Assembly (NCBI GenBank): GCA_945866505.1
Contig: CAMBHH010000086.1
Location: 1-13,782 of the forward strand
Origin: Flavobacterium psychrophilum
GTDB lineage: Bacteria; Bacteroidota; Bacteroidia; Flavobacteriales; Flavobacteriaceae
DNA length: 13,782 nucleotides
Direction: 5' to 3'
How positions within the stretch are numbered: the stretch's first letter is position 1; each line of letters opens with the position of its first letter. Shown piece by piece: positions 12,181-13,782 of the stretch. The notes beneath the pieces were generated by a model, which was given only the letters and a program-made list of their open reading frames with translations, was not told the DNA's origin and did no database searches. The position numbers were made by a program, and so were the translations under genes.

Positions 12181-12251
12181 GGCGTCGTGGCCGAGCGGCT
12201 AGGCTGGGCTCTGCAAAAGCTCCTACTCCGGTTCGAATCCGGACGATGCCT
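12181..12251 (+). tRNA. tRNA-Cys (anticodon GCA)
   Basis: All four helices fold: acceptor GGCGTCG with CGATGCC (one G-U pair); a 3-bp D stem GCC/GGC; an anticodon stem around loop CTGCAAA with anticodon GCA at 12213-12215; and a T stem TCCGG/CCGGA with loop TTCGAAT. The discriminator is T (U73), typical of Cys tRNAs. The 3' CCA is not encoded. The last part of this gene is repeated three times downstream. Confidence 0.97.
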
Positions 12252-12258
12252 CTGAATT

Positions 12259-12284
12259 AACCTCTCTTTTCGAGAGGTTTTTTT
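12259..12284 (+). terminator. tRNA-Cys Rho-independent terminator
   Basis: AACCTCTC (12259-12266) and GAGAGGTT (12272-12279) form a perfect 8-bp stem with a 5-base loop, followed by a run of T. It lies 7 bp past the tRNA end. Confidence 0.88.
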
Positions 12285-12319
12285 ATGTTTAATTTTTAGG
12301 AAAAATTAGGTAAAGTTAT

Positions 12320-12346
12320 GGTTCGAATCCGGACGATGCCTCTGAA
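12320..12346 (+). repeat. tRNA-Cys 3'-end copy 2 (exact)
   Basis: This copy is identical over all 27 positions to 12230-12256, running from GGTTCGAATCC through ATGCC to TCTGAA. It starts exactly 90 bp downstream of the corresponding tRNA base. The upstream base pattern (TTAT) does not continue the tRNA sequence. Confidence 0.93.
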
Positions 12347-12374
12347 ACCTTCAAGGAAACTTGAGGGTTTTTTT
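12345..12374 (+). terminator. Terminator-like hairpin after copy 2
   Basis: An 11-bp stem (12345-12355 with 12360-12370, one G-U pair) is closed by a GAAA tetraloop and followed by seven T. It is structurally a strong Rho-independent terminator, although no gene precedes it. A decayed relative follows copy 4. Confidence 0.8.
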
Positions 12375-12409
12375 GTAGTTAATTTTTAGAAAAAATTAAG
12401 TAAAGTTAT

Positions 12410-12436
12410 GGTTCTAATCCGGAAGATGCCTCAAGA
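12410..12436 (+). repeat. tRNA-Cys 3'-end copy 3 (degenerate)
   Basis: Five of 27 positions differ from the tRNA segment: two inside the T loop/acceptor part and three in the flanking bases. It lies 90 bp after copy 2. Confidence 0.88.
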
Positions 12437-12465
12437 AGAGATACAGAAATGTGTCTCTTTTTTTT
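12436..12465 (+). terminator. Terminator-like hairpin after copy 3
   Basis: A 9-bp stem (12436-12444 with 12451-12459, one T-G pair) with a 6-base loop leads into a run of eight T. Its sequence is unrelated to the hairpins after copies 1 and 2. Confidence 0.75.
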
Positions 12466-12497
12466 ATGACATTCTTAGAAAAAATGAATTAAAGCTA

Positions 12498-12524
12498 TGT
12501 TCGAATCCGGAGAATGTTACTGAA
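12498..12524 (+). repeat. tRNA-Cys 3'-end copy 4 (degenerate)
   Basis: The core TTCGAATCCGGA is kept, but about six of 27 positions differ. It is followed by a hairpin (12523-12548) that matches the one after copy 2 at about 23 of 26 positions, with two stem mismatches and an interrupted T-run. Confidence 0.8.
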
Positions 12525-12575
12525 ACCATCAAGGAAACTTCAGGGTTATTTTATGTTTTATAGTAAAATTATAGT

Positions 12576-12709: not shown

Positions 12710-13294
12710 CTATGGTATAATGAATTTTATTTTATCCCTATTAGGTTTTGGTACAGCTATTTCGAGTGTGTCCTTATTAATACAAAAATTGGCATAATTT
12801 TTTCTTTTCATTTGAATTTCCGACGATTTTTTTGTAAAGTAATTTTTATCTTTCGACTTTCTAATTAATTCGTTAAATAGTATAATTGAAGCTGAATATT
12901 TCTTAGATTTTTCTATTTCCGTAAAATAGAAAGATAATATTTTTCCATTTTTATATTCAATTTTAATTCTTATTGTAGCAGAATCATCTATAGAAATTTT
13001 TGTTGTATCTAGTTTAAAATATTGTTCATCAAAATTTTTTGTCTGATTCGATAATTGTTTTAGATAATCAGTTTCTATTTTCGTTTTATAATAAGTAAAT
13101 ATTTGTTTTCGTTTTTCAATAAGAACATTTCCATTTTGGTCTATTTTCGCATATAATAATGGATATACTTTTATGTAAGGTTTTTTATCAATGGGCCAAT
13201 AGTGATAAGACATTATTTCGACATTCTTAATTTCATCTTGCTTCGGAGAACAACCAAAAAATATAAAAGTCACTATTATAATAAATTGCTTCAT
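12710..13294 (-). CDS. Predicted lipoprotein of unknown function
   Basis: I do not recognise the family. The product has 194 residues. The N-terminus, MKQFIIIVTFIFFGCS, is a typical lipoprotein signal peptide: a Lys, a hydrophobic stretch, then lipobox FFGC with Cys15 as the lipidation site. The mature protein is rich in Lys, Ile, Tyr and Asn. It has short alternating segments suggesting beta strands (about 22-60 and 100-125) and a basic Lys-rich region (about 142-168). No catalytic motif is visible. The DNA is more AT-rich, with more poly-A and poly-T, than the housekeeping genes here. The gene is convergent with the tRNA-Cys array and 66 bp from the LysE-type gene on the same strand. Near-identical TTACTAGTANC words flank it on both sides. 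Confidence 0.75.
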   Translation of the reverse strand: MKQFIIIVTFIFFGCSPKQDEIKNVEIMSYHYWPIDKKPYIKVYPLLYAKIDQNGNVLIEKRKQIFTYYKTKIETDYLKQLSNQTKNFDEQYFKLDTTKISIDDSATIRIKIEYKNGKILSFYFTEIEKSKKYSASIILFNELIRKSKDKNYFTKKSSEIQMKRKNYANFCINKDTLEIAVPKPNRDKIKFIIP

Positions 13295-13360: not shown

Positions 13361-13782
13361 CTACTCATCAATCCTCTCCAAAGCATCTTTCAACTTTTCT
13401 TTTTCTTCTGGAAACCAACCCTGAACAATTAAAACGATCCCAAAAATCATTAAAACAATACTGATTCCTTTTTTGATTTTAAGAATATTAACTGGTGTTA
13501 AGCTAGATTTCAATTGTTTGGCTAAAGAAATTTTGATGCAATCTATCAGTAAATAAGAGAGAATTACGGTTGTGAAGAAAGTCAACATTCTTGAAGTTTC
13601 CATATTCAATTTCGGTCCAACAGAGATAATTACAGCCAACCAAAATCCCAAAACTCCTACATTGATGATATTCAAGAAAAACCCTTTGATAAACAAGCCT
13701 AGATAATCTTTTCGGATAATTTCATTGTCAATTTTTTGTAAATCTTGTTTCTCTTCTTTTTGTAAACCAATGAAAGATATTA
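13361..13782 (-). CDS. LysE-family amino acid exporter-like membrane protein, N-terminus cut by window edge
   Basis: The minus-strand frame stays open from the stop at 13361 to the right edge, giving 139 residues. A TTG at 13694-13696 could be taken as a start, but coding clearly continues upstream (LQKEEKQDLQKIDNEIIRKDYLGL), so the gene is a fragment. Seen: a charged cytoplasmic loop, then FIKGFFLNIINVGVLGFWLAVIISVGP. This matches the LysE/RhtB pattern of a membrane helix containing an N-P/V-G-x-x-x-FW word. Two more membrane segments follow (around TFFTTVILSYLLIDCIKISL and GISIVLMIFGIVLIVQGWF), and an acidic tail. The family is usually about 200-230 residues, so about 80 are missing. Its substrate cannot be told. 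Confidence 0.78.
   Translation of the reverse strand, partial: ISFIGLQKEEKQDLQKIDNEIIRKDYLGLFIKGFFLNIINVGVLGFWLAVIISVGPKLNMETSRMLTFFTTVILSYLLIDCIKISLAKQLKSSLTPVNILKIKKGISIVLMIFGIVLIVQGWFPEEKEKLKDALERIDE

Follow-up and report, generated by a model that had tools for sequence, protein, structure and literature searches.

The window, meaning here the entire stretch of 13,782 nucleotides of Flavobacterium psychrophilum DNA that was analysed, encodes a glutaminyl-tRNA synthetase (GlnS) that shares 90% identity with its F. soyangense counterpart, and towards its end carries a tRNA-Cys gene (anticodon GCA; 12181..12252, plus strand) that is recognized by ARAGORN and by Rfam family RF00005 (50.6 bits) and that does not encode its CCA end. 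This gene anchors a tandem array, on the same strand, of units of approximately 90 bp, each of which consists, in order, of a tRNA 3' end, a terminator hairpin with a T run, an AT-rich hairpin and a short junction. Unit 1 (90 bp; 12231..12320) opens with the 3' end of the real tRNA and continues through a terminator of type AACCTCTC/GAGAGGTT, its T run and the AT hairpin to the junction TAAAGTTATG; within it lie the intrinsic terminator of tRNA-Cys (12259..12286, the stem occupying 12259-12279 ahead of the T run), assigned by a terminator rule, and an AT-rich inverted repeat around TTAATTTTTAGGAAAAATTA (12288..12310), found by repeat analysis. Unit 2 (90 bp; 12321..12410) carries a hairpin of type CCTTCAAGG/CTTGAGGG, and its terminator-like hairpin (12344..12374, stem 12344-12371) is accepted by the same rule. 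Unit 3 (88 bp; 12411..12498) carries type AGAGATACA/TGTGTCTCT, and unit 4 (12499..12575), the last, is decaying and retains a weak hairpin. The predicted folding energies of the four hairpins are -13.8, -15.7, -15.1 and -4.9 kcal/mol, respectively, and the terminator rule accepts units 1 and 2 only. Among units 1, 2 and 3 the hairpin sequence differs while the remainder of the unit stays similar. A convergent LysE-type gene (13361..13780, minus strand) is cut by the end of the window, and its partial frame matches Pfam LysE at E 7e-5 and 22.8 bits, below the 25.6-bit cut-off; a 194-amino-acid frame without a Pfam match (12710-13294, minus strand) lies between it and the array.

The 27-mer at 12230-12256, which contains the tRNA 3' end, recurs three times on its 3' side, at +90, +180 and +268 bp (spacings of 90, 90 and 88 bp): at 12320..12346 without mismatch, at 12410..12436 with 5 mismatches in 27 and at 12498..12524 with 6. 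When the 1.5 kb downstream was modelled by 1000 order-1 Markov sequences, none matched the 27-mer with fewer than 9 mismatches, and the repetition described in an earlier reading of the sequence alone (hereafter the sequence-only reading) is thereby confirmed. That reading held that only the segment from the T loop to the 3' end is repeated. As a statement about the tRNA part this describes most relatives, with the exception of three loci in which a longer piece was copied, starting (as judged by eye) at the anticodon region in L003 and L145 and just past the anticodon in L012; as a statement about the array it fails, as the whole unit of approximately 90 bp repeats, including the terminator-like and AT hairpins. 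The option of a DNA-level repetition of such a unit, whether ‘mini-cassette’ or tandem duplication, is supported.

The comparison drew on 80 loci of relatives, mostly Flavobacterium by title, collected by a scan for GlnS; tRNA-Cys is present in 78 of them. A working set of 75 loci, the window included, was formed by requiring at least 200 bp of downstream sequence, after loci where tRNA-Cys was not found (L014, L018) or where less downstream sequence was available (L010, L013, L033, L042) had been left out. A strict unit profile, trained on units of the same loci that it scanned, finds at least two units in 47 of the 75, with a maximum of 17 in L034 (F. fryxellicola). A looser rule, which admits chance hits, finds at least one extra core (that is, one further tRNA 3' end) in 57 and none in 18, with a median core spacing of 90 bp (n=118); in L034 it ended early, at 4 cores as against 17 profile units. 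By local alignment at p <=0.01, a significant copy of the tRNA is present in 52 of 72 glnS loci and absent from 20. The unit is approximately 90 bp long, or approximately 104 bp where a GC palindrome interrupts the displaced tRNA piece. The comparison places the same kind of unit at the same locus in relatives, in variable number, with turnover judged between species and not between strains. In L017, L035 and L050 the tRNA-Cys gene is inverted relative to glnS/folB, and in L050 the array is inverted along with it.

Five of 60 tRNA-Cys loci in a family-wide sample (of unstated kinship) pass the local alignment at p <=0.01, as against the 52 of 72 glnS loci; one of these (L208, in genome G248) has a second tRNA-Cys gene slightly more than 100 bp downstream, and two (L210 and L215) may be chance. 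At least two near-perfect tRNA-Cys 3' ends were counted by eye in 50 of 199 genomes of the genus, of which at least G067 and G200 have scattered copies and not arrays. Selection by the AT hairpin gave eight places in the family (L141-L148), of which six are at tRNA-Cys, with additional tRNA-Cys pieces downstream in L141, L145 and L147 and a remnant in L143.

The components of the unit are nearly confined to this one gene. Two hairpin alleles searched in eight genomes lie at tRNA-Cys in every case save one match with two mismatches (G005:C6), and 14 of 15 exact matches to the AT repeat in six genomes do so as well, the remaining one (L159, G001:C87) being at a place without a predicted tRNA; with one mismatch allowed, 13 AT-repeat matches also occur elsewhere in the same six-genome search, as counted by eye. 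Around the 34 tRNA genes of the genome of L001 (700 bp each), the only extra 3' ends are those of neighbouring tRNA genes. A dispersed mobile repeat (REP or MITE) was rejected as a description of the unit on the ground of this near-confinement.

Several observations indicate that the array grows and changes as a tandem repeat. Derived bases are common to the non-first cores of one array 138 times, as against a mean of 46 and a maximum of 76 in 2000 shuffles. Complete units are nearest to a unit of their own array in 48 of 90 cases, with 2 ties and 40 nearest to another array, while the shuffled maximum in 200 runs is 6; many first units are nearest to the first units of other species. Higher-order repeats are found in L012 and L026, mosaic units in L034, three identical 92-bp units in L155, and perfect cores deep inside the arrays of L001 and L034. 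Taken at the level of sequence comparison, these data indicate an array that is nearly restricted to one locus, changes its copy number rapidly, grows by duplication of single units or blocks, and has units that recombine with one another.

The exchange appears to extend to the terminator of the tRNA gene itself. A quick tree was made from GlnS for 72 loci, three loci with the hairpin type ‘other’ being left out. It requires no fewer than 29 switches in the type of first hairpin, only slightly below the shuffled mean of 31.5, and no fewer than 39 in the number of cores, against 43.0 when shuffled. One close group (L047, L048, L051, L052 and L058) contains three types of first hairpin, and L056 and L077 have hairpins that appear by eye to be chimeric, joining the left arm of one type to the right arm of a second. 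Such turnover fits a process in which the real tRNA 3' end would recombine with displaced ends, leaving the tRNA intact and its terminator swapped. In L048 an acceptor-stem change of the tRNA-Cys (GATGACTC) is common to the next two units of its array, as if tRNA gene and array exchange sequence.

Among units of 80-96 bp, to which the fold counts were restricted, mean hairpin energies are -14.2 kcal/mol for first units, -9.3 for internal units and -7.5 for last units, with -3.5 for the control. The T run is kept in 70/70 first, 53/53 internal and 40/56 last units, and 44 of 53 internal units have a hairpin at -5 kcal/mol or better. Selection appears to be clearest and strongest on the first terminator; because the T runs and most of the hairpins of internal units are also kept, some selection on those is possible.

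A second class of tRNA-anchored repeat became apparent at other tRNA genes. In the genome of L034, where 33 tRNAs were checked, both tRNA-Arg and tRNA-Pro have behind them, in tandem, a terminator, a small frame, a GC palindrome and the tRNA 3' end copied exactly; five such small frames from several genomes are GIY-YIG proteins by Pfam. A profile search for single-domain GIY-YIG frames in 28 genomes (sets of 5 and 25, with two in common) yielded 81 loci in 74 distinct clusters, a number smaller than that of all matches, as weaker or longer ones (approximately 165 amino acids or more, with few exceptions) were left out. A tRNA or tRNA piece lies within 400 bp of 28 of these clusters and is lacking at the other 46. 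The tRNAs concerned are those for Pro, Val, Ala, Met, Asn, Arg, Phe and Asp. An intact tRNA together with a displaced piece of its 3' part is found at 17 of the 28, in a different order in L257, and at L232, L294 and L305 the link is by short pieces alone. In most cases the displaced piece starts at position 45-48 and extends to the tRNA 3' end. At 14 control loci with longer GIY-YIG frames no tRNA piece lies near the match, and a 17-nucleotide match at L249 lies farther off.

Where the cassettes are themselves in tandem (L317:696-2521 and L251:1129-3294, as well as L255, L254, L288, L301 and L296), each comprises a tRNA 3' end, a terminator, a single-domain GIY-YIG frame and a displaced tRNA copy; the periods are approximately 350-390 bp (L317, L251, L288, L301 and L296), with one of 514 bp in L255, and the adjoining genes are tRNA-Pro, tRNA-Arg, tRNA-Met and tRNA-Val. 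A ‘5'-side’ version of the cassette is possible at four loci (L252, in G001:C23, and L236, L287 and L304): they comprise a GIY-YIG frame located 5' of a tRNA-Arg(TCG) whose 5' end is copied there, and tRNA-Ala loci that show a 5' piece (t1-26 or t1-27) upstream. No GIY-YIG frame was found by profile at tRNA-Cys in the window, in L001-L080 or in L141-L220, tRNA-Cys is not among the tRNAs that carry nuclease cassettes in the 74 clusters, and no counterpart of the AT hairpin was recognised in the nuclease cassettes that were read. Among the best matches in the open-access literature, nothing on point was found for bacterial GIY-YIG cassettes at tRNA genes.

The GC palindrome may connect the two classes. 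In 14 displaced copies at GIY-YIG cassettes that were inspected by eye, it stands in place of the anticodon arm (for example in L299 and L315) or, at tRNA-Asn, in the T loop (L311 and L313). Of the 28 tRNA-linked clusters, 22 have a strict form of it no more than 200 bp from the frame, as against 30 of 4000 random windows of 700 bp; it accompanies one of the other 46 clusters, of which L221-L223 are examples. The same palindrome interrupts the displaced tRNA-Cys copies of five relatives (L002, L003, L012, L028 and L034). The glnS loci, 1008 kb in all, contain 15 strict palindromes, and 8 of these are in tRNA-Cys array DNA, which makes up 23 kb. Strict palindromes occur in 5 of 79 tRNA-Cys loci, and the window is free of them. 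The form CCCGAAGCTTCGGGA is also dispersed, in seven of eight genomes, with approximately 15 sites in G004 and none at the tRNA-Cys array of that genome.

From this material the best explanation is probably that of a tandem array anchored at tRNA-Cys, which would change by recombination between the real and the displaced tRNA ends with swapping of the terminator, and which, at lower confidence, may be a relative of the cassettes that lacks the nuclease. The behaviour of the array itself is well supported. The real tRNA 3' end counts among the repeats, so that units would be lost or gained when it recombines unequally with a displaced end, and the same event would bring the terminator of another unit behind an intact tRNA-Cys. 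The link to the GIY-YIG cassettes is drawn from the palindrome and from a shared plan (an intact tRNA, a terminator and a displaced tRNA 3' end, in tandem), and it suggests, with less assurance, that the tRNA-Cys array may belong to the tRNA-anchored cassette class as a member without nuclease. Weighing against the explanation are the T runs that internal units retain, the lack of a nuclease frame at the tRNA-Cys loci examined, the small share of those loci with the strict palindrome, its dispersal in the genomes and the 46 clusters that have no tRNA piece. More broadly, and tentatively, with a degree of belief that stops somewhat short of even, Flavobacterium chromosomes may harbour undescribed homing cassettes at tRNA 3' ends, of which the tRNA-Cys array would be a relative devoid of nuclease. 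Such a homing cassette would consist of an intact tRNA, a terminator, a nuclease with a single GIY-YIG domain, and a displaced copy that has the palindrome in place of one arm, an exchange that could protect this copy from the nuclease; recombination alone, or nucleases that act in trans, might keep the tRNA-Cys array in motion.

A precedent for such activity exists in phages T4 and T6. Their SegB, a homing endonuclease of the GIY-YIG family that is free-standing and has its gene linked to those of tRNAs, drives tandem amplification of a tRNA segment, for which both its nuclease activity and homologous recombination are required (PMC13096335). The Flavobacterium cassettes likewise place a GIY-YIG protein beside tRNA genes, but differ in copying mainly the 3' part of the tRNA and in having a palindrome in the displaced copy, and the tRNA-Cys array differs further in having no nuclease gene. 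By analogy, the Flavobacterium cassettes may work similarly to SegB: tandem amplification would result when the nuclease cuts at the tRNA and the break undergoes homologous repair.

One competing account is that of a plain minisatellite, in which the tRNA 3' end was duplicated once by chance along with its terminator, and replication slippage and unequal crossing-over then sustained the repeat, with no kinship to GIY-YIG cassettes. All of the evidence for tandem growth fits such a history, as do the lack of a nuclease gene at the tRNA-Cys loci, the 20 of 72 loci without a significant tRNA copy and the dispersal of the palindrome to other places in the genomes. Against it stand both the presence of the palindrome in the displaced copies of five tRNA-Cys loci and near most tRNA-linked nuclease genes, at a frequency far above that of random windows, and the plan of tRNA end, terminator and displaced end that is common to the arrays and the nuclease cassettes. 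We consider this account unlikely, while giving it more weight than either of those that follow.

A functional role for the array, either as a stack of terminators maintained by selection ahead of the convergent gene or as a source of tRNA-end RNAs that act as decoys, has in its favour that the frame next downstream has convergent orientation in 68 of 71 loci and that the internal hairpins are stronger than the control and retain the T run throughout. Against it, the internal hairpins are weaker than the first, some hairpins are chimeric or broken as judged by eye (in L056 and L077, and also in L021), 18 of 75 loci are without any extra core, and the tRNA is the sole match of the window to Rfam at gathering scores. 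This interpretation is improbable.

The sequence-only reading had raised serial site-specific integration at tRNA-Cys, each event restoring the gene and moving the old 3' end outward. The copied piece is indeed the stretch used as an att core, and in a few relatives (L003 and L145) it reaches the anticodon region. Against integration, 67 of 75 loci have a LysE-family gene no more than 4 kb beyond the array, and in 50 it is the first frame. The other 17 of these loci have 19 frames in between, with Pfam matches that are GldM-like, thioredoxin-like, methyltransferase-like or FUR-like, or with none; these frames differ among the 17 loci, several being GldM-like, and no recombinase was found among them by Pfam. 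Among the matches listed, those to PF00589 lie at least approximately 45 kb from tRNA-Cys in the 14 genomes that could be compared by eye, and in G001 two tRNA genes that do have such matches at approximately 1 kb, tRNA-Asn and tRNA-Asp, are both without an array. The exact 21-bp core has no match in viral contigs, and phage and plasmid collections returned only tRNA-Cys-like and short weak matches (E >=0.009), apart from one tRNA match of a Pedobacter plasmid.

Nor does the age structure of the array agree with successive integrations. Decay that grows with distance from the tRNA, as the sequence-only reading had noticed, holds for the window; in general there is no steady rise, the mean number of mismatches being 2.61 in second cores (n=33), 2.82 in third (n=17), 2.71 in fourth (n=7) and 3.91 in last cores (n=57). 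The view of the copies as att scars that are mutually independent and older outward was rejected on the excess of shared derived bases and on a gradient confined to the last cores. Given, in addition, the higher-order repeats, and with neither islands nor insertions found behind the gene or at the copies in relatives (whose copy number is variable and not fixed), serial integration is largely refuted and very improbable as an account of the array; an ancient founding integration behind it is possible.

Tandem repeats on the 3' side of a tRNA gene, each opening with a piece of the tRNA 3' end, are known from E. coli as the repeats of the tyrT locus (rtT RNA); their 178-bp unit takes in 19 bp of the tRNA as well as a small reading frame. 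The tRNA-Cys array resembles them in that its tandem units, each opening with the tRNA 3' end, stand directly behind the gene. Unlike them, it has a unit of approximately 90 bp with approximately 20-27 bp of tRNA and a terminator hairpin inside, it exchanges its terminator rapidly, and Rfam RtT is absent among the matches of the window up to E 10. Islands inserted at tRNA genes by tyrosine integrases, as catalogued by Islander, have a regenerated tRNA gene and a displaced 3' fragment, and an intact gene with a displaced fragment is also what is seen at tRNA-Cys; the differences are that neither integrase nor island was found at this locus, that the period is a tandem one of approximately 90 bp and that derived changes are shared between copies. 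REP palindromes, associated with RAYT transposases, are short, GC-rich and dispersed in the genome. The Flavobacterium GC palindrome is likewise short and also dispersed, and is set apart from them by lying inside a displaced copy of a tRNA, close to a GIY-YIG gene. Nothing on point was found among the best open-access literature matches for tyrT repeats, Flavobacterium VNTR typing or tRNA fragment arrays.

If the favoured explanation is correct, tRNA-Cys in these bacteria would be tied to a recombining array through which its terminator is exchanged almost without phylogenetic memory, and the nuclease cassettes at the tRNA genes for Pro, Val, Ala, Met, Asn and Arg would represent a bacterial counterpart of the amplification driven by SegB. 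Displaced tRNA ends in Flavobacterium genomes should accordingly not be scored automatically as scars of integration.
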